From contig JAQVCW010000010.1 of assembly GCA_028689585.1 (NCBI GenBank), forward strand, positions 50,036-114,035: 64,000 nt of DNA, in the 5' to 3' direction. Each line of letters begins with the position of its first letter. The stretch's first letter is position 1. This DNA comes from Lachnospiraceae bacterium (GTDB lineage Bacteria > Bacillota > Clostridia > Lachnospirales > Lachnospiraceae). A program made the position numbers and the translations under genes. The notes beneath the pieces are model-generated. The model was not told the DNA's origin, made no database searches, and saw nothing but the letters and a program-made list of their open reading frames with translations. Positions 7,931 through 16,357 of this stretch are shown piece after piece.

Positions 7931-9082
7931 TCAATCATTTTTTTCTTTTTGGCTTTTTACTATCATGTGAAGTTCCATCTTCACCCGTTTTCTTTTCTGG
8001 ATTACTGCCAGAATCAAACGCATGAGCCAGCAGAAGGGCAGCAGTATTGGTAGCTTCTTTAATACTGGGAACAAGAAACACATCGTTTTATACGGAAGGA
8101 AGATTCTGGAGAAGAAATAGCTGACCTTTCCTTTCCAAACAGAGTTTGCTTTTGTTTCTGCTTTTTTGATTTTGTTTTTGATGGCCTGTTTTGACGTTCC
8201 GTACACACCACTGGAAATTACATAGGAGGCCATTTCTTCTGTTTTCTCTGTTTGATCGGCATCACCAAACCAACACTCAGCCAGATGCTCCGCAGTTTCT
8301 TTGAATTCCGACAAATCAAGCTGTTCCAATTCCTGTTTCAGATAGTTCTGATGCAAATCAATTTTATGCCTGTCTAAAAACACATGAATATCCATAATTG
8401 AACGAATGCCGCTGCCACCGCCAAAGTAATGCTTTGCAAAGTGTGTCAGCATAAAAATATAGTAATCATCCCATGAGAAATGAAAGCAATGTGCTCTGCC
8501 CTCATCCGGGATTGCTTTTTCCCATACATTTTTATAATAGGCGTGTGCTTCATACTGCTCATGCAGCATATCTCTATGTAATTCCACGCCCATATACGGA
8601 GATTTTATATAATTATCATGATTGCTGACAGCAAAATGCTCGGTCGTATAACCAAGTGTCTCCATCTGTTTTCTTGCCAGCTCTGCCTTTTTCGCATCAA
8701 TCAAGATATCCAGATCTGCCATCTCCCGGTAATCCGCCTGCGGGTACATTTCTTTCAGCAAACAGCCTTTCAGTGGCAAAGCATCAATTCCAGCACCCAT
8801 CAGATTCTCGAGGATAGAATTACGTTCTGAAAGCTGAATCATACTCCTGACAATGTGCTGGTCACGTTCGCTTTTCCATTTATGACCTTGCTTCGGCTCT
8901 GGCTGTGTTTTCAGTTTTTCCACTGCATAATATGCCATGCACTGAACACAATGAAATTTTGCCAGCTTATAGAGCTGCTCAAAAGAAACCTGCTCCGGCT
9001 TCTCCGCCGGGCAGGTACCATCCAATACAGATTTCAGCAATGCAATCAAATAGTCTGCCGTCTTTCTTGTTTCCTCATTCAT
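7931..9082 (-). CDS. Nucleotidyltransferase family protein (NTP_transf_5-like) of the RiPP-like cluster
   Basis: 383 residues. The polymerase-beta-like nucleotidyltransferase core is visible as ALPLKGCLLKEMYPQADYR followed by the metal-binding MADLDILID. Homologous uncharacterised nucleotidyltransferases accompany Firmicutes lasso-peptide clusters (paeninodin type), where they sit with the exporter and kinase. The start overlaps the end of the ABC exporter by 4 bp (ATGA), so it is the last translationally coupled gene of the cluster. The substrate is unknown; modification of the peptide or of an immunity target is possible. Confidence 0.8.
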   Translation of the reverse strand: MNEETRKTADYLIALLKSVLDGTCPAEKPEQVSFEQLYKLAKFHCVQCMAYYAVEKLKTQPEPKQGHKWKSERDQHIVRSMIQLSERNSILENLMGAGIDALPLKGCLLKEMYPQADYREMADLDILIDAKKAELARKQMETLGYTTEHFAVSNHDNYIKSPYMGVELHRDMLHEQYEAHAYYKNVWEKAIPDEGRAHCFHFSWDDYYIFMLTHFAKHYFGGGSGIRSIMDIHVFLDRHKIDLHQNYLKQELEQLDLSEFKETAEHLAECWFGDADQTEKTEEMASYVISSGVYGTSKQAIKNKIKKAETKANSVWKGKVSYFFSRIFLPYKTMCFLFPVLKKLPILLPFCWLMRLILAVIQKRKRVKMELHMIVKSQKEKND

Positions 9083-10758
9083 CCTTCTTGCCCCTCGCTG
9101 TACTTTCCATGATTTTTGTTGACTGTAACACCATCCTCCAGCATAATCTGTTTATTGCAGATGTGAAGCGCCGCTTCCCGGTGAGTCACAATAAAGCAGG
9201 TGCGATTTTTCAATCCGGCGATATGCTCCAGCACCTTCCCCTCTGTCAGGTTGTCCAGCGCACTGGTAGCCTCGTCTAAAAGAATGACAGGTGCCTCAGA
9301 CAGCACTGCTCTCGCAATGGCAATCCGCTGCCGCTGACCTTCTGAAAATCCATTCCCACGCTCACCTAACATGGTATATAAGCCCTCCGGCAATTCACGG
9401 ATGAACTCGTCAGCACAGGCAATCTGCAAAGCCGTTTCAATTTCATCCTCTGTGGCATTCTGTTTTGCCATCTGCAGGTTTTCCAGTATTGTGCCGGAAA
9501 ACAGTCCATTCTGCTGGGGGACATAGGTAAACAGGCTTCTTGTGCGCTTTCCCGGTATCATCGCTTTTCCATCAGCCACGATTTGAATTGCACCGCCATT
9601 TGCCGTATAAATACCCAGCAGCAACAGAAAGATGGTGCTTTTTCCACCGCCGGAGAGTCCGGTCAATGCAACCATATCACCTGTATTGATTTGAAATGAC
9701 ACATCTCTAAGGACTTCCGTTCTCCCATAAGAAAATACCACATGGTCAAATGTGATTTTCTCAAGGCTTCCGGCAAAGGTTTCTTTCTCCTGTGGTTCAT
9801 CTTCAAACTGGTTTAATTCCATCAGCCGCTCGGAACTTGCAATAATACCATAATACTTTGGCAGGATACCGGACAGATTGGCAATCGGCCCCTGTATCTG
9901 TCCTACCAGCTGCAAGATAGCCGTCAAGGTTCCATAAGTCATAATCCCATAATATAATCCACGGGCACCCCAGCATAAGGCGAACAGATATCCAAGCTGA
10001 AAAATCAAGCTGAAGCTTGAATTAGCAATAATGGATATGGTTCTCCGCTTCATCTGGGCCTCATAGTGCTCCTGCTGATACCCGCCGCACTTTTCTTCAA
10101 CGGCTCTTTCTCCACAAAATACACGGACAATCAAAAAATTTTCGATGGTTTCCTGTAAGAAGGACTCTACCTTGCCCTGTTTCTTCTGCACATCCTTATG
10201 AAGTTCCTTCATTTTTTTACGAAAAGTACCCGTTAGAAGAATCAGTAAAAGACCACCAATGATAAAAATGCCTGCAAAGACGGGTTCCAGTACAATCAAA
10301 ACCGCAATTGCACAAACCAGCCTTGTAATCATACTGAACAAATTGGGCAATATGGTTGCCACGCCGTCCGATATAATCTGTACATCTGAGAAGAAGCGGT
10401 TCATCCACTCACCGCTGTGGATACTCCAAACAGCGGAATATTCCTTTTTCAGCAGTTCGTGAAGGCGGTCTTTCCTCAGCAGTACACCCATCCCGGAACG
10501 GATGCGCTCTTCGCTGCTGTTTAGCGATAATCTCAAAATAAATTGAAGCAGAATAAGTGCAAAGAGAAAAGCAGCGGCCAGCATTGCTTTATGCAATTCT
10601 GTTGTGATGGCGGCATCAATAATTGCCCGGCAGGACAGCGCAAAGAAAACGGAACTGATGGAAAAAACACCAGCACCGGCAGCGACCATGAATATTCTTT
10701 TATGTAATGTTTTTGTCTGCATCCATATCCAGTGCAAAGCGGTTCGGTTTCCGTTCAC
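9079..10758 (-). CDS. ABC exporter with fused permease and ATPase domains
   Basis: 559 residues. The N-terminal half has about six membrane helices of the type I exporter fold. The ATPase half has Walker A GLSGGGKST, signature FSEGQRQRIAIA, Walker B VILLDEATSALD and the switch His in VTHRE. There is no N-terminal C39 peptidase domain, so leader removal must be done by another protein, plausibly the S24/S26 peptidase immediately upstream. By position and type it is the probable exporter of the cluster's peptide products, and may give self-immunity. Confidence 0.9.
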   Translation of the reverse strand: MNGNRTALHWIWMQTKTLHKRIFMVAAGAGVFSISSVFFALSCRAIIDAAITTELHKAMLAAAFLFALILLQFILRLSLNSSEERIRSGMGVLLRKDRLHELLKKEYSAVWSIHSGEWMNRFFSDVQIISDGVATILPNLFSMITRLVCAIAVLIVLEPVFAGIFIIGGLLLILLTGTFRKKMKELHKDVQKKQGKVESFLQETIENFLIVRVFCGERAVEEKCGGYQQEHYEAQMKRRTISIIANSSFSLIFQLGYLFALCWGARGLYYGIMTYGTLTAILQLVGQIQGPIANLSGILPKYYGIIASSERLMELNQFEDEPQEKETFAGSLEKITFDHVVFSYGRTEVLRDVSFQINTGDMVALTGLSGGGKSTIFLLLLGIYTANGGAIQIVADGKAMIPGKRTRSLFTYVPQQNGLFSGTILENLQMAKQNATEDEIETALQIACADEFIRELPEGLYTMLGERGNGFSEGQRQRIAIARAVLSEAPVILLDEATSALDNLTEGKVLEHIAGLKNRTCFIVTHREAALHICNKQIMLEDGVTVNKNHGKYSEGQEG

Positions 10759-10783
10759 AGTGCTTTCCCTTTCCTGCGCAGTT

Positions 10784-11215
10784 TTAGTGCCGTATTTTTC
10801 TTACAATACCTCTCATTTTGTTTCTGACTCTAAGAAGCATCATTCTTATGCGATATGGCCGACACCACAAAAGAATATAGAACCGGTAGATTGGAAAATT
10901 CAGCTTGATTTCTTTTTCGTTATGATAAACCTTCGTTAATTTTCCAATCACCTTCGCTTTTTCTATATGCTCCAAAAAAGTGCAGTTATCCCCACAAATC
11001 AGATAATGCCTCTCCTGTGCCCTGATGATCCGATGCAAGACCATCTGCCCACTGGGATTTCGATAAAGGACAATCTCCATAGGCACGCAATCCTCTGTCA
11101 CCTTTTCAATCACCACCGTATCCACTTTAGGGCGAATAAATGGCAGCATGCTGACGCCTTGAGCTGCTGTCATATAAAAGCCATCTTTCAGGATTATTTC
11201 TTCAATGGTCTGCAT
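10784..11215 (-). CDS. S24/S26-type peptidase with Ser-His dyad, probable leader peptidase
   Basis: 143 residues. The nucleophile motif is GVSMLPFI (Ser22). The general base position is VLHRII (His61) rather than Lys, as in ER/SipW-type signal peptidases, and is followed by the GDNC box. The C-terminal region, FYILLWCRPYRIRMMLL, is hydrophobic and basic and could touch the membrane. It lies between the PqqD-like and ABC genes, 1 bp from the former. That position is taken in lasso clusters by the B2 transglutaminase-like leader protease, so a leader-cleaving role is inferred. Confidence 0.8.
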   Translation of the reverse strand: MQTIEEIILKDGFYMTAAQGVSMLPFIRPKVDTVVIEKVTEDCVPMEIVLYRNPSGQMVLHRIIRAQERHYLICGDNCTFLEHIEKAKVIGKLTKVYHNEKEIKLNFPIYRFYILLWCRPYRIRMMLLRVRNKMRGIVRKIRH

Positions 11216-11216
11216 A

Positions 11217-11486
11217 TCAGCGTTCCAGTAATTCTGCCTTGGTCAGCTTATCAATAAATTCCTCCGCATCCTTTTCCACCGTTGCTCTGTCGATTTCATA
11301 CTGGTTCAGCATTTCAGCCACTAACGTTTCTTTGTTCATATCCTGAGCGACAAGCTGCTTCCATAAAAATGCTCCCGCCTTATTCAGACGAATCATGCCC
11401 TTAAATTCATCCGCTGCTTTTCCAAGAGCAACGACCACATACTGGTCTCCAAGCTGTCTGATCATAAATCCTTCTTTGATTTTCAT
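11217..11486 (-). CDS. PqqD-family peptide chaperone (RiPP recognition element)
   Basis: 89 residues with the PqqD winged-helix pattern: VVALGKAADEFKGMIRLNKAGAFLW, then an acidic helix and a C-terminal helix ending KAELLER. Such proteins (PqqD, lasso B1) bind the leader of ribosomal peptides and present it to modifying enzymes. Both candidate precursors upstream carry a YEKPEV motif, close to the YxxPxL leader motif recognised by lasso B1 proteins. Spacing is 1 bp to the peptidase and 3 bp to the kinase-like gene. Confidence 0.88.
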   Translation of the reverse strand: MKIKEGFMIRQLGDQYVVVALGKAADEFKGMIRLNKAGAFLWKQLVAQDMNKETLVAEMLNQYEIDRATVEKDAEEFIDKLTKAELLER

Positions 11487-11489
11487 GTT

Positions 11490-12206
11490 CTATTCCCCCT
11501 GACATTTACCATTCATTCCTTCGTAGGCAGTCTCAGCCGCCTCTAATTCCATGTTGCACTGTAGACGGTAGCATGGAATATTTTTGACTATCCAGTCCAG
11601 AATCGCAAGCAGTTTTTCCAGCTTTTCGGTGTCCTTAGGAAGCCTTAACTGCCGGAAGATACGTTCTGCCACCTCTGCATCGGATACCCTCTGGATTTTA
11701 TTTTCAGTTCCTCTCTCTAAAAAGCATAATGCTTTCAAAGGAACCATAACATTGGTACTCCAGCCTTCTTTTCCACACCACGGAGAACCACCGGCGTATA
11801 AGGTATTGTCGATTCTTCTCAGAAAAGGTCTGTCCCCATTTACTACAAACGCCCTGTCCCCGAAAACCTGTTTCCACAGCTTAATGTGAGTGCTTTTCCC
11901 AGTTCCACTCTTTGCTGTAAAGGCATATGCAAAGCCATCTACAGCAATGGTGGCAGCATGAAGATAAAAAGCATCAAAGGCAAGCATCTCCATATCCAGT
12001 TTTTCCAGATATGCAAAACTTTTTGTGGTCCTTCTGTCAAAATCAAGTTCTTTGTTTTCTTCCTCGACCAGTGCTATCTCCTGTTCGGAAACAGCAATTG
12101 TCAACTCTGTGTGTTCTTTGTCTGTCAGGTAATCCCTGCTGATGCGTTTTGTATATTCATCCACATCAAGCAGTTCGATTGTAACATCTGCAATCTGTAT
12201 TTTCAT
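11490..12206 (-). CDS. HPr-kinase-like ATP-binding protein of the RiPP-like cluster
   Basis: About 238 residues from the ATG at 12206, which has a GGAGAG ribosome site; the frame extends to 12296 but that extension lacks a ribosome site and crosses a glycine-rich small frame. The C-terminal domain has a P-loop, AKSGTGKST (98-106), after LHAATIAVDGFAYAF, the pattern of HprK/PEP-carboxykinase-fold kinases. Relatives in paeninodin-type lasso clusters phosphorylate the C-terminal Ser of the precursor. Neither precursor here ends in Ser, so the substrate may differ. Confidence 0.82.
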   Translation of the reverse strand: MKIQIADVTIELLDVDEYTKRISRDYLTDKEHTELTIAVSEQEIALVEEENKELDFDRRTTKSFAYLEKLDMEMLAFDAFYLHAATIAVDGFAYAFTAKSGTGKSTHIKLWKQVFGDRAFVVNGDRPFLRRIDNTLYAGGSPWCGKEGWSTNVMVPLKALCFLERGTENKIQRVSDAEVAERIFRQLRLPKDTEKLEKLLAILDWIVKNIPCYRLQCNMELEAAETAYEGMNGKCQGE

Positions 12207-12258
12207 TTTCTCTCCATAATAGAAAACAGGCAGACATATGAGCCTGCCTGTGAACAAA

Positions 12259-12336
12259 TTAAAAAACACCAGCGCCGCCGGTATTGCCGCCACCACTCAT
12301 ATCGTCACTTCCACCAATTCCGCCTACATTTAACAT
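12259..12336 (-). other. Glycine-rich small reading frame between precursor 1 and the kinase gene
   Basis: A 25-codon frame starting MLNVGGIGGSDDM and ending GGAGVF. It is in frame with an upstream AAT TAT CTG GTC GTT segment that also follows precursor 2, where that segment begins with ATG; here the ATG position is GCG. It may be the remnant of a second small peptide gene, or chance. No ribosome site is seen before the 12336 ATG. Confidence 0.25.
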
Positions 12337-12374
12337 ATTGACAATGACAATATTAACGACCAGATAATTCGCTA

Positions 12375-12494
12375 TTACCCCCGGGGGAAGTAGCCACCAT
12401 CCTGCCCGTCTGAACCAAATCCGGTCCCCATCACAATATCATCTTTATCGAATATTACAACTGACACTTCTGGCTTCTCATATACTTCTTTCAT
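12375..12494 (-). CDS. Candidate RiPP precursor peptide 1 (39 aa)
   Basis: Too short for ordinary gene calling. It reads MKEVYEKPEVSVVIFDKDD, then a Gly-rich C-terminal region ending DGGYFPRG. The leader-like first 21 residues are nearly identical to the paralog at 12781-12903, while the C-terminal half has diverged but keeps a DGG motif. The 5' region shares TTTTGCGgAAGCGAGG with the paralog, with the ribosome site in the last bases. The YxxPxV element matches the docking motif of PqqD-type proteins. If a Thr at leader position -2 marks the cut as in lasso precursors, the core would start at FGSDGQD with Asp at position 7; this is speculative. Confidence 0.75.
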   Translation of the reverse strand: MKEVYEKPEVSVVIFDKDDIVMGTGFGSDGQDGGYFPRG

Positions 12495-12636
12495 TTTCAG
12501 TACCTCGCTTCCGCAAAATTTTTTACATTTAATTATAGTAACAGTTCAGGGCGGCGAAAAAAAGGCAAAAAGCAATATATGAATCCTTCTATATACTAAA
12601 TAAATCCATATAAACCGATATGTCTTTAATTAGACT

Positions 12637-12750
12637 TCCCTCCAATGGACCGCCGTTTTTATGACCGCCGCTTCGAGCGGAGCACTGCTGCTGCAGCTGC
12701 TCGGGATTGTCCTGTTCTCAAAGAGTATGTATCTGTTTCATGCCCTGTTC
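12637..12750 (+). pseudogene. Stray 114-bp fragment of the adjacent sensor kinase gene
   Basis: Bases 12637-12750 are roughly 90% or more identical by eye to 14633-14746 inside the sensor kinase gene, from the CTCCAATGGAC start through AAGAGTATGTATCTGTTTCATG. The fragment lies between the two precursor genes and joins directly to AACGACCAGATAATTC, which also follows precursor 1. It is the trace of an earlier tandem duplication of the peptide/kinase locus that later collapsed. It has no coding capacity of its own. Confidence 0.9.
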
Positions 12751-12780
12751 CAGCTTGCTTAACGACCAGATAATTCATTA

Positions 12781-12903
12781 TTACTCCCGACCATAGTGTC
12801 CACCATCCTCAAAATCGGGGCCTGACGCTAGTGTCATGGTCACAATATCATCTTTATCAAACATCACTACTTTAACCTCTGGCTTTTCATATGCTTCTCT
12901 CAT
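12781..12903 (-). CDS. Candidate RiPP precursor peptide 2 (40 aa)
   Basis: Reads MREAYEKPEVKVVMFDKDD, then IVTMTLASGPDFEDGG and a short HYGRE end. ATG 12903 has GAGGAG 7-8 bp upstream and is preferred over the in-frame start at 12963, because precursor 1 begins at the same alignment position. Acidic and Gly-rich C-terminus, no Cys, so neither a lanthipeptide nor a sactipeptide. The gene is divergent from the response regulator, whose promoter starts about 160 bp away, suggesting the two-component system controls it. Confidence 0.78.
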   Translation of the reverse strand: MREAYEKPEVKVVMFDKDDIVTMTLASGPDFEDGGHYGRE

Positions 12904-13090: not shown

Positions 13091-13114
13091 CTATTCTTGC
13101 AGCGAGGTGATAAG

Positions 13115-13840
13115 ATGGAGCCATTAAAAATTGCAATTTGCGAGGATATGCACAATGAGGAAGAAAAGCTTCTTGCTCTTTTACAGAAAAGCAGCATACC
13201 AACAAGCTGTACCGTTTTCACAAGCGGGGAAGCATTGCTGTATGCATATCAGCCGCAAATCTTTGATTTGCTGCTGATGGATATTTATATGGGTGGGATC
13301 ACAGGAGTAGAGACCATTACTAAAATCAGAGAAACAGACGAGGAGATTCCCGTTGCCTTTATTACGACCAGTACCGACCACGCTTTGGAAAGCTACCGGC
13401 TTTCGGCACTGAAGTACATAGAAAAGCCATTTAAACAGAAGGATATTGAAGATATTTTAAAACTGGTGCTGCTCAAAAAAAACAATGTACCTTCACTGAT
13501 GATTCAAAAAAACGGAAAAGCAGAAAAAATTCCATTTTCCCAGATTCTCTATTTGGAGCAGCAGACGCATCGACTGAATATTTATCTGAAAAACGGGGAG
13601 ATGGTTCTGATCTATGAAAAGCTGTCTGCACTTTTTTCGCAGCTTGCGGAGCAGGATTTTTTCAATTCCCACAAAAGCTTTTCGGTCAATCTTTCTTTTG
13701 TCCGCTTTATCGATACCGAGCTAAAATGCTTTGTGATGCAAAATGGCAGGAATGTTCCGATTCGCAGGGAAAGCATGGGAAAAGCAAAAAAAGCCCTCGA
13801 AAACTTTTTATTTCATAAAACAAGGGGGATTTCAGAATGA
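13115..13840 (+). CDS. LytTR-family response regulator
   Basis: 241 residues. The N-terminal receiver domain has acidic residues in AICEDMHNEEE, phospho-acceptor Asp in LLLMDIYMGG and conserved Lys in KYIEKPFK. A C-terminal LytTR DNA-binding domain starts near PSLMIQKNGKAEKIPFSQILYLE. The start at 13115 has GAGGTGAT just upstream. The end overlaps the kinase start by 4 bp (ATGA). LytTR regulators with GHKL kinases typically control peptide or bacteriocin genes, which fits the divergent precursor cluster. Confidence 0.92.
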   Translation: MEPLKIAICEDMHNEEEKLLALLQKSSIPTSCTVFTSGEALLYAYQPQIFDLLLMDIYMGGITGVETITKIRETDEEIPVAFITTSTDHALESYRLSALKYIEKPFKQKDIEDILKLVLLKKNNVPSLMIQKNGKAEKIPFSQILYLEQQTHRLNIYLKNGEMVLIYEKLSALFSQLAEQDFFNSHKSFSVNLSFVRFIDTELKCFVMQNGRNVPIRRESMGKAKKALENFLFHKTRGISE

Positions 13841-15645
13841 AAAAACGAATCTCTCCCGCTCTTATTACGCAGGTGATCCTTATTTTGATGGTTTGTCTGC
13901 TGCTGGCTGGCGCCAAAGGGTTTGTCATAAAGAGCACAAAACTGGACCGCGTCACTACGGTTACCGATGTAACAGCAAGCATTAACGGTGAAGAAAAAGC
14001 GATTACGCTGCCCTATAGTTTCAAACAGTTAGCACCTCGTACCCCTGTTACCATCCGTGCCCGGATTACACCAAAAGCCCATGATGTGATCTACATGAAG
14101 AGTGTTTATTCCCCTGCAAAAATCTATGTGGATGATACGCTGATTCACGAATTTGGTGTTTCGGACAGCTACCCCGGGTTTATGGTGGACCCGGCCACCG
14201 AGGTTTATATGATCCCGTTGGGAAATCACAGCGGGGAGGTGACGTTGCGCATGGAATTCCTCTCTCCCATAGCCCGTGATGTGCTGACGGTACACGCACC
14301 GATTCTGGGTGATATCAAATCCGTTTTTGGGGACAGGACCAAAGCACTTGGAATGCCTTTTATCTTTTCTACTATGCAGTTGATTGTAGGAATACTTCTT
14401 ATTTTAATTTCTATTTTTGTGATGATTTTTGAAAAGAAGGGCGTCATATTCTTCTGGCTGGGTCTGTTCTCCCTTACTACCGGAGTGTGGGCATTTGGCG
14501 AATGTAACTTTTCCGGAGTTTTGTTTAAGAACCCCACTCTGCTGTATCTGCTTGCCTTTATAGGCCTGTTTACATTTGCAATCCCACTGCTTTATTTTGC
14601 AATGACGACCATTCATTTTACACACGAGAAGCCCCTCCAATGGACGGCCATTTTTATGACAGCCGCTTCGAGCGGGGCACTGCTGCTGCAGCTACTCGGG
14701 ATTGTCCCGCTCTCAAAGAGTATGTATCTGTTTCATGTCCTGGTACCGCTGACCCTTTGTATCCTGACAGGCTTTACGGTTTATGAACGCATCTTCCACA
14801 GGGAAATCGGGGCAATGCGGTTTGTACTGCCCATTGGGGTATTGACACTTTGCTCACTGCTTGAGGTGTTTAATTATCAGCTTGCATTCACCTATATGTT
14901 TGCCTCCCTGTTCCAGATGGGAGTCCTGTTTTTCATCGTGTTTACAGGGATCGCCGGCGGCCTCTATATCCGGGATGTGATTAAGCTTGAAAACCAGCGG
15001 AGAGAACTTGCCTTTGAGGTAAGTCTGATGGAAATACAGATCGAAGAGCAGAAAAAGCACAGCCTTTTAATAGTGGAAAATGCAGAAAAACTCAAACAGC
15101 AGCGTCATGATCTGCGCCATCAGCTCACCGTAGTAAAGGAGCTGGCCGACTATGACAACAAGGAATTAAAGGAGTACATCAACTCCTTAATTGAACAGGT
15201 ACCGTCCGCGCCGGGGAACTACTGCGAAAATGCTGCGGTAAACGCCATTGTTTCCCGTTATGTTTCTGTATGTGAAAAAGAGGGAATTGAATGCATCATA
15301 AACCTCACCGTCCCTGAACGCAATGAGCCGATGACCGACAGCAGCCTTAGTGTGATTTTCGGAAACCTTCTGGAAAATGCGGTGGAGGCCTGCGGACGCA
15401 TGACCGGGGGGCATAAGTTTATCCGCTTAAACAGCAGTCTGCAATATGATATGCTCACCATCACCATGGATAACAGCTTTGACGGGAAGGTCACAGAGGA
15501 AAATGGACGCTTTCATTCCCGGAAACGGGAGGATTTTGGAATCGGTCTTTCCTCTGTTCAGGCAGTGGCAAAAAAAGGACAGGGCGATGCCCGGTTTGAA
15601 TGTGATGGGGTGGTTTTTCTATCCTCCGTGTATGTTCGGATATAA
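13837..15645 (+). CDS. Membrane sensor histidine kinase, 7TM sensor plus GHKL ATPase
   Basis: 602 residues: an N-terminal signal/membrane anchor, an extracellular beta-rich domain (about 35-170, with VYSPAKIYVDDTLIHEFG, as in 7TMR-DISM extracellular modules), seven membrane helices (about 175-380), a coiled linker, an H-box RHDLRHQ near residue 425, and a GHKL ATPase domain with N-box FGNLLENAVEA and G-box GIGLSSV. It partners the upstream regulator. A 114-bp duplicate of its membrane region lies at 12637-12750. Confidence 0.9.
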   Translation: MKKRISPALITQVILILMVCLLLAGAKGFVIKSTKLDRVTTVTDVTASINGEEKAITLPYSFKQLAPRTPVTIRARITPKAHDVIYMKSVYSPAKIYVDDTLIHEFGVSDSYPGFMVDPATEVYMIPLGNHSGEVTLRMEFLSPIARDVLTVHAPILGDIKSVFGDRTKALGMPFIFSTMQLIVGILLILISIFVMIFEKKGVIFFWLGLFSLTTGVWAFGECNFSGVLFKNPTLLYLLAFIGLFTFAIPLLYFAMTTIHFTHEKPLQWTAIFMTAASSGALLLQLLGIVPLSKSMYLFHVLVPLTLCILTGFTVYERIFHREIGAMRFVLPIGVLTLCSLLEVFNYQLAFTYMFASLFQMGVLFFIVFTGIAGGLYIRDVIKLENQRRELAFEVSLMEIQIEEQKKHSLLIVENAEKLKQQRHDLRHQLTVVKELADYDNKELKEYINSLIEQVPSAPGNYCENAAVNAIVSRYVSVCEKEGIECIINLTVPERNEPMTDSSLSVIFGNLLENAVEACGRMTGGHKFIRLNSSLQYDMLTITMDNSFDGKVTEENGRFHSRKREDFGIGLSSVQAVAKKGQGDARFECDGVVFLSSVYVRI

Positions 15646-15659
15646 GCCATAAATACCAT

Positions 15660-16357
15660 GAGCCGCCTGTTCTGGCTTTCTTTCCCATCCACAGATAAGA
15701 TACTGTGTTCGTGAAGCTGGTCTTCCTTTCCTGAAAGCCGGATAATCTCATCTACGGTATTGAGCAGTATCTGCTCAGTTACCCGGAAGAAATGTTCGGT
15801 ATCAATGTTCCCTATGACGATTCGGAAGGTATCGTCTGTCGGAATACCATAGGGTAGTTCCAGATATTTTCTCAGCCATTTTTCCTTTTTCTTTGCAAAG
15901 CTTTCAATCTCGCCCCATTCATTGGCATTACCAAGAATGGCAAAGAAAACGATCATGATAATATCGCCCAGTAAATGCTGGGAATAAGATGGATGGCAAT
16001 AATCGGGCACGGCATCTGCATTCTTTTTGATTTTTTTAATGAGGGAATCATTTCCCCCATTGTATGCTGTCCGCATACATTCTTCAGGATTGCCATATAT
16101 CCCAGATCTGATTGAGTATAGGTTATATAACTTTAATTTCTTGGATCCATCATTTCTGATATCCAATCCGTTAAGGAATGGAAGAAATGATTTGTTACCA
16201 TCATAAAATCAACAATCCCACGGTCTTTTTTCTTACGTTCGCGTTTTTCTTTCCTTGTCATCTCTAAAATCTTCCTGTGCGAAAAGTTTTTATTCCTCAG
16301 AGCTGGAAGCACATTTTGAGGAAAACGGCTCACTGCGCCGGCGGCAATGAAATGCAA
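15660..16357 (-). pseudogene. Decayed ISAs1-family transposase
   Basis: Minus-strand frame 15558-16166 encodes the ISAs1 N-terminal domain pattern (HLLGDIIMIVFFAILGNANE, SFAKKKEKWLRKYLELPYG, IPTDDTFRIVIGNID) and reaches SVDGKESQNRR before homology ends and the frame runs antisense into the sensor kinase. The first part, with LTDWISEMMDPRN, lies in another frame (16133-16357), so a frameshift separates them. The catalytic C-terminal half is missing. Terminal inverted repeats were not found. Confidence 0.75.

Follow-up and report, generated by a model that had tools for sequence, protein, structure and literature searches.

How would a peptide cluster that carries accessory genes of lasso peptide clusters, with neither a lasso cyclase nor a B2 protease, process its precursors? 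This question is raised by a seven-gene locus in a stretch of 64,000 nucleotides from a Lachnospiraceae bacterium (contig JAQVCW010000010.1, positions 50,036 to 114,035; this whole stretch is hereafter the window). A preliminary description of the locus left two options, namely that the cyclase was lost or acts in trans, or that the cluster represents a distinct class of ribosomally synthesized and post-translationally modified peptide (RiPP), in which a kinase and/or a nucleotidyltransferase makes the modification. Our analysis favors the second option: with a probability of roughly 0.8, the cluster makes linear, kinase-phosphorylated peptides of the linear polyphosphorylated peptide (LPP) type rather than a lasso peptide. 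The assignment follows from five enzyme genes that correspond in kind and order to those of the lpp operon, together with two short precursors with a YxxP leader.

LPP was described from the lpp operon of Paenibacillus alginolyticus DSM5050 (Popov et al., Nat Commun, 20 May 2026; PMC13381572), the only paper found in a literature search on the family name. According to its main text, the LPP set comprises a SipW-like peptidase, a RiPP recognition element (RRE), an HprK-like kinase, an NTP transferase, and an MsbA-like exporter, its core genes include neither a cyclase nor a B2 protease, and the experiments were performed on lppA-K-B-S-D-N. Three findings are shown there, in this Bacilli member only: LppK puts several phosphates on Ser3 of the core, at position +18 from the leader Tyr; LppS (S29, H68, and D93, a Ser-His-Asp triad) requires LppB to cut the YxxP leader in vitro; and efficient binding depends on YxxP. 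As the distinct class of the preliminary description has thus already been published as LPP, the class is no longer new, and what is new here is this branch of it and its tie to secreted proteins.

All seven genes of the locus are intact and share one direction; they occupy the minus strand between 12903 and 7931 in the order first described, which corresponds to A-A-K-B-S-D-N of the LPP system:

12781..12903, minus strand: precursor peptide 1, 40 aa; an open reading frame (ORF) with a Shine-Dalgarno-like GAGGAG upstream, 62% identical to precursor 2
12375..12494, minus strand: precursor peptide 2, 39 aa; an ORF recognized by its protein identity to, and repeat with, precursor 1
11490..12206, minus strand: LppK-type HprK-like kinase, 238 aa; conserved residues, predicted fold, and PF27840
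11217..11486, minus strand: LppB-type RRE of the PqqD family, 89 aa; PF05402, 2.9e-15
10784..11215, minus strand: LppS-type leader peptidase with an S24/S26-like fold and S22/H61/D76; conserved triad and model
9079..10758, minus strand: LppD-type ABC exporter, 559 aa; PF00664 and PF00005, best NCBIfam match MsbA_rel, below cut-off
7931..9082, minus strand: LppN-type nucleotidyltransferase (NTP_transf_5), 383 aa; PF14907, 2e-45

The start of the kinase is assumed to be the ATG at 12206; a longer ORF begins at the GTG at 12296. The PqqD, ABC, and NTP_transf_5 matches exceed the Pfam cut-offs, and the kinase and peptidase were assigned by conserved residues and predicted folds rather than by curated cut-offs, the residues being counted in homologs chosen by profiles that were seeded with the window's own proteins. 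H83, G101, G103, K104 (the Lys of the P-loop), and D125 of the kinase are each kept in 103/103 homologs, and position 105 is Ser in 79 and Thr in 24 of them. The AlphaFold2 model of the kinase (pLDDT 94) has the HprK/P of L. casei (1kkm) as its top PDB fold match (E 7e-7), and its best matches are all HprK/P; these were found by the fold search only, a profile search against PDB sequences matching only TsaE (E 0.13). In precomputed annotation, PF27840 is borne by the window kinase and by 117 of the 119 other homologs listed. The kinase is also distantly similar to ScmC of the SynChlorMet cassette (TIGR04249; 4.4e-6, 26.2 bits against a cut-off of 125), and is not a member of that family.

In the peptidase, S22, H61, and D76 are each kept in 72/72 homologs, and the Ser-to-His spacing of 39 is that of LppS. 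The peptidase model (pLDDT 90) gave weak top fold matches to signal peptidases, SipA among them (E 2.9e-3), and to LexA, none of them with E 0.001 or better, and a search against PDB sequences gave no useful match. D73 of the RRE, which is Asp in 71/82 homologs, aligns with an Asp of LppB whose spacing to F74 identifies it as D70, the residue that holds the leader Tyr. In phmmer alignments, both the window RRE and LppB have Asp where PbaB1 of the paeninodin type has Gln.

Both precursors, the length of which falls within the 35-200 aa given in the main text of PMC13381572, share YEKPEVxVVxFDKDDIV followed by a short core with DGG, and hence contain the YxxPxV leader motif; neither has a WxxP leader. 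In precursor 1, the leader (YEKPEV...DDIV) is followed by Ser27, then Gly, and a core with EDGG, and in precursor 2 the same leader pattern is followed by Ser28 and a core with QDGG, so that a Ser is present near the leader/core junction in both. No Cys occurs in either core. The two genes sit in a 100-nt repeat of 80% identity and look like a duplication. They are more than chance ORFs, given the 62% protein identity, the repeat, and the recurrence of such precursors next to this five-gene set in a distant genome (locus L015, see below). A search for window-type precursors among 5.8 billion proteins returned five matches, four of which are those of the window and L015, and one of which is new (P0125). 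A class-wide precursor search matched 22 of 361 genomes, the window's own included; the matches in the others extend mostly over the leader and score 27.5 bits or less.

From the genes, their order, the conserved residues, and the predicted folds observed here, and from the lack of any cyclase or B2 protease found, we infer every reaction in this organism, along with its phosphosite, cleavage site, and final product. Recognition of the YEKPEV leader would fall to the PqqD protein, and the HprK-like kinase would add one or more phosphates to a serine where the core begins (Ser27 and Ser28, respectively). The Ser-His-Asp peptidase would then remove the leader close to this serine, leaving a core of roughly 15 residues for export by the ABC protein, and the nucleotidyltransferase may add a further group. 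Of the modifying enzymes proposed in the preliminary description, the kinase is supported by its agreement with LPP; deletion of lppN left the detectable products unchanged in the published host (main text of PMC13381572).

Lasso enzymes were searched for beyond the cluster. As first described, no cyclase or B2 protease is present in the cluster, and neither was found elsewhere in the genome of origin (4.14 Mb, completeness 96%): an Asn-synthetase family search found only an ordinary AsnB (with an MCG start) and a LarE-like protein (identities read from sequence), and a search for the B2 protease (PF13471) gave nothing over the cut-off, the only match being a partial one of 22.1 bits in a lipoprotein-like protein.

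The same gene set recurs in relatives. Among 83 kinase loci (80 from the top-ranked of at least 583 relatives, and three from the same genus), all five genes lie within 7 kb of the kinase in 15, of which 11 are without a match to a radical S-adenosylmethionine (SAM) enzyme-like profile (some contigs are short), and nine of 26 further kinase loci also have all five genes, one locus being common to both sets (L050, identical to L210). No B2 match over the cut-off was found in ten other five-gene genomes (those of the 11 loci without a radical SAM match, except L050), five of which have sub-cut-off matches, and no full-length Asn-synthetase match in three of these ten (L044, L052, and L055; their completeness is not given). 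With AsnB as the query, no Asn-synthetase-like ORF was found in 152 loci; since this query did detect one in 6/11 loci with a B2 protease (described below), the absence is not mere blindness, even though the sensitivity is incomplete. Most of the full-length Asn-synthetase matches with loci from the other five-gene genomes start with MCG or MCT, like ordinary AsnB. Four matches of 513-552 aa do not (L140, L141, L145, and L146, in the genomes of L071, L081, L038, and L061, respectively); they are outside the fetched cluster loci and may still have a role there, and the window's genome has none of that type.

The closest complete relative fetched is L015, in a metagenome-assembled genome labeled Spirochaetales, which has the kinase (52% identical), PqqD, S26, ABC, and NTP5 genes, as well as two precursors of the DDIV...DGG type encoded on the opposite strand (one being MKKYVKPEISVTEFEEDDIVLTVMSSGQDYEDGGSLGKSW, the other its sister). 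Its flanking genes resemble what we take to be housekeeping-type genes (cysteine desulfurase, ThiI, and CoA-activase). With the same set lying between such genes, the form without a cyclase seems to be passed on as one unit. The LPP family is restricted to Bacillota according to the main text of PMC13381572, and the Spirochaetales label may result from mis-binning.

For comparison with lasso loci, we searched for the B2 protease in the window's bacterial family, where it is present in 13 of 397 genomes, and fetched 11 of these loci. Six contain WxxP precursors, six a cyclase-like ORF, and none an S26 peptidase; in six the kinase is 303-324 aa long and scores only 22-38 bits with the window's kinase profile. 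A tentative rule for this family would be that LPP is marked by a Tyr leader, an S26 peptidase, and a kinase some 240 aa long, and its lasso counterpart by a Trp leader, a B2 protease with a cyclase, and a kinase some 305-325 aa long. One of the B2 loci, L287 (genome G357), contains two RRE genes, of which one scores like LPP-side RREs, and possibly combines neighboring lasso and LPP-like systems.

In view of these results, we regard it as highly improbable that the locus is a paeninodin-type lasso cluster with its cyclase and B2 protease lost or acting in trans. The resemblance pointed out in the preliminary description is real, as the kinase, PqqD, exporter, and nucleotidyltransferase are common to paeninodin-type clusters (main text of PMC13381572; for rumen lasso clusters, accessible text of PMC7533575), the leader is likewise of the aromatic-xxP type, and an Asp or Glu 7-8 residues past a small residue in the cores would be compatible with a ring. 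However, the window differs in having no cyclase and no B2 protease, Tyr instead of Trp in the leader, and a kinase of a different subfamily, and the B2 loci of its own family differ from it in leader, kinase, and peptidase. A cyclase in trans was rejected because searches of the source genome gave no lasso cyclase and those of ten five-gene genomes no B2 protease over the cut-off, and a simple loss is at odds with the recurrence of the five genes without a cyclase. Quite unlikely as well is a peptide cluster that depended on a radical SAM enzyme and lost its gene, the remaining enzymes being accessory. A gene with a CxxxCxxC motif, which we take to be radical SAM-like, adjoins the kinase in two genomes of the same genus (G002 and G007), and a profile grown from it matched 12/83 kinase loci; the profile did not match 11 of the 15 complete five-gene loci (some of whose contigs end near the kinase), the window cores lack Cys, and no radical SAM maturase was found in or near the window cluster, the G007 protein giving a single match in the window's own genome, at 28% identity. 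The variant clusters themselves (L012 and L013 of the same genus, L014, and L036) share with the window a homologous kinase, RRE, and peptidase, as well as Y-containing leaders, and differ in the radical SAM-like gene, which lies beside the kinase in L012, L013, and L014; the L012 peptide has several Cys.

Two further alternatives concern the surroundings of the enzyme genes, where the following features were identified:

12226..12251, minus strand: terminator-like hairpin that separates the precursors from the kinase, a 10-pair stem followed by a T run; a pattern match only, possibly an attenuator
13112-13840, plus strand (divergent): LytTR response regulator; Pfam LytTR and Response_reg
13837-15645, plus strand (divergent): GHKL histidine kinase; Pfam HATPase_c_5

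The LytTR/histidine-kinase pair starts about 200 bp from a precursor gene, and from its position may be a regulator of, or a sensor for, the peptide. That the peptides are signals read by this pair is compatible with LPP chemistry, and we regard it as doubtful: the flanks of L015, as read by eye, look like housekeeping genes. A decaying, non-functional locus is very unlikely. It could be suspected from a 118-nt stretch of the histidine-kinase gene (14633-14750) that is copied, with 91% identity, between the precursor genes (12638-12755), and from a Gly-rich open frame without a YxxP leader (MLNVGGIGGSDDMSGGGNTGGAGVF, about 12262-12345, minus strand) that lies 3' of precursor 2 and overlaps the terminator-like hairpin; against this, the seven ORFs are intact and the catalytic residues are kept. 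Further along, an ORF on the minus strand (15558-16166) resembles what we take to be the first part of an ISAs1-type transposase.

Several observations weigh against assigning the window cluster to LPP. Both the kinase (11.8 bits, AAA_29) and the peptidase (15.9 bits, Peptidase_S24, cut-off 23.3) match below the Pfam cut-offs, and their NCBIfam matches are likewise below cut-off. The His-to-Asp spacing of the peptidase is 15, compared with 25 in LppS, and D76 was assigned without alignment to LppS. By pairwise score, the window RRE is nearest to the lasso RRE TbiB1 (26.3 bits), then LppB (18.1), and then PbaB1 (14.2), and one RRE of the B2 locus L287 scores 103 bits with the LPP-side RRE profile, so that the LPP and lasso kinds are not cleanly apart everywhere. 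The B2 protease was found in 0/31 genomes whose kinase match is strong (above 150 bits, with at most seven candidates per genome scored), compared with 13/397 overall, a difference that is not significant and counts for little, since about one would be expected by chance. The radical SAM-like gene beside the kinase within the same genus also belongs here. As for the precursors, the published leader consensus past YxxPxV (LxHQxIxFETxxS) is replaced in the window by K/S VV M/I FDKDDIV, and relatives in its bacterial family share FxxxDxIxTS rather than that consensus. At Tyr+19, the position of Ser in most relatives, both window peptides carry Thr, with Ser following at +22 and +23; in the published case, an S3T exchange abolished phosphorylation (main text of PMC13381572). 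Among 61 of 62 relatives' peptides (one was not parsable), Ser is present 15-25 residues past the leader Tyr in 58, with the first such Ser at +19 in 52, close to the +18 of LPP and in favor of the assignment, and the leader residue is Tyr in 59 and Phe in 2, under a profile that favors Tyr. Given this leader and the shift of Ser from the published +18, the window cluster is a variant of LPP and its phosphosite a prediction. It also differs from the published system in its core of about 15 residues, as predicted here, rather than 45, in its divergent two-component pair, and in the lack of lasso genes found in its genome. Finally, even for the published LPP cluster, the main text of PMC13381572 leaves the native product unidentified and states that the biological role is unknown.

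A lead on that role comes from the distribution of LPP-like peptides across the bacterial family. Four precursors were searched against the 397 family genomes and matched 17, one of which was dropped (a match inside a 1058-codon frame); the remaining 16/16 all have a strong kinase match, compared with 31/397 overall. A broader profile (A3), which was built partly from peptides of the same genomes, some chosen near the kinase, matched 25 genomes, of which 24 are among the 31; of the nine genomes that the first search had missed, eight are among them. Peptides can outnumber enzyme sets: G270 has 15 LPP-like peptide matches and one detected kinase locus, and G293, which is a single contig, has four matches and one kinase match. 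In total, 62 LPP-like peptides were found in 69 fetched loci, and for 40/62 no kinase is present in the fetched stretch.

Many of these peptides lie beside genes for secreted-looking proteins, as judged by a home-made and crude signal-peptide rule. A same-strand gene of this kind is present within 250 bp of 43/62 peptides, or 31/47 by hand count without the 15 of G270, and often ends 10-55 bp upstream of the peptide gene. Secreted-looking genes make up 53/79 adjacent genes, compared with 97/480 others in the same stretches (Fisher P 4e-16, from the crude rule and with genes that are not independent). They also accompany 26/33 peptides that have no LPP-type profile match in the fetched stretch (any ABC or radical SAM profile match was counted as LPP-type, and less than 9 kb is visible on at least one side for all 33). 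A Pfam scan of six neighbors, five adjoining the peptide gene and the sixth (L061) one gene away, found GH53, F5/8 C, or laminin-G-like domains, BspA leucine-rich repeats, InlB-type repeats, or a transglutaminase domain. No secreted-looking gene adjoins the window's precursors.

The genome with many peptides and the secreted neighbors are additions to what the main text of PMC13381572 describes, which contains none of the words secreted, surface, orphan, Clostridi-, and Lachnospir-, and a literature search for a link between LPP peptides and secreted proteins found nothing, which is thin evidence. From sequence alone, they suggest a surface-linked, trans-acting role. More tentatively, it is conceivable that in gut Clostridia the LPP enzymes act in trans on many peptides beside secreted partners (carbohydrate-binding, glycosidase, leucine-rich, or other surface proteins), that the peptides, once phosphorylated, serve as components or tags of the cell surface rather than as antibiotics, and that the window holds a self-contained two-peptide form with its own sensor kinase. 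The gene neighborhoods provide a concrete lead on LPP function, and many peptides may share one enzyme set.

A C-terminal domain of some 110 aa, in many cases ending like ALYLYxxAAxxY, is common to large proteins that are predicted to be secreted and are encoded near kinase or peptide genes (loci L044, L055, L061, L068, L071, L083, L091, L092, L050, L089, L163, L172, and L174); in the L163 protein, Pfam recognized only leucine-rich repeats, and in the L061 protein only a transglutaminase domain. In L216, an identical peptide is encoded twice (9096-9263 and 11039-11206), each time after a different secreted-looking gene. In G270 (L255-L266), several peptides share a DVTFDDxFF-like C-terminal end, so that the cores are partly conserved too.

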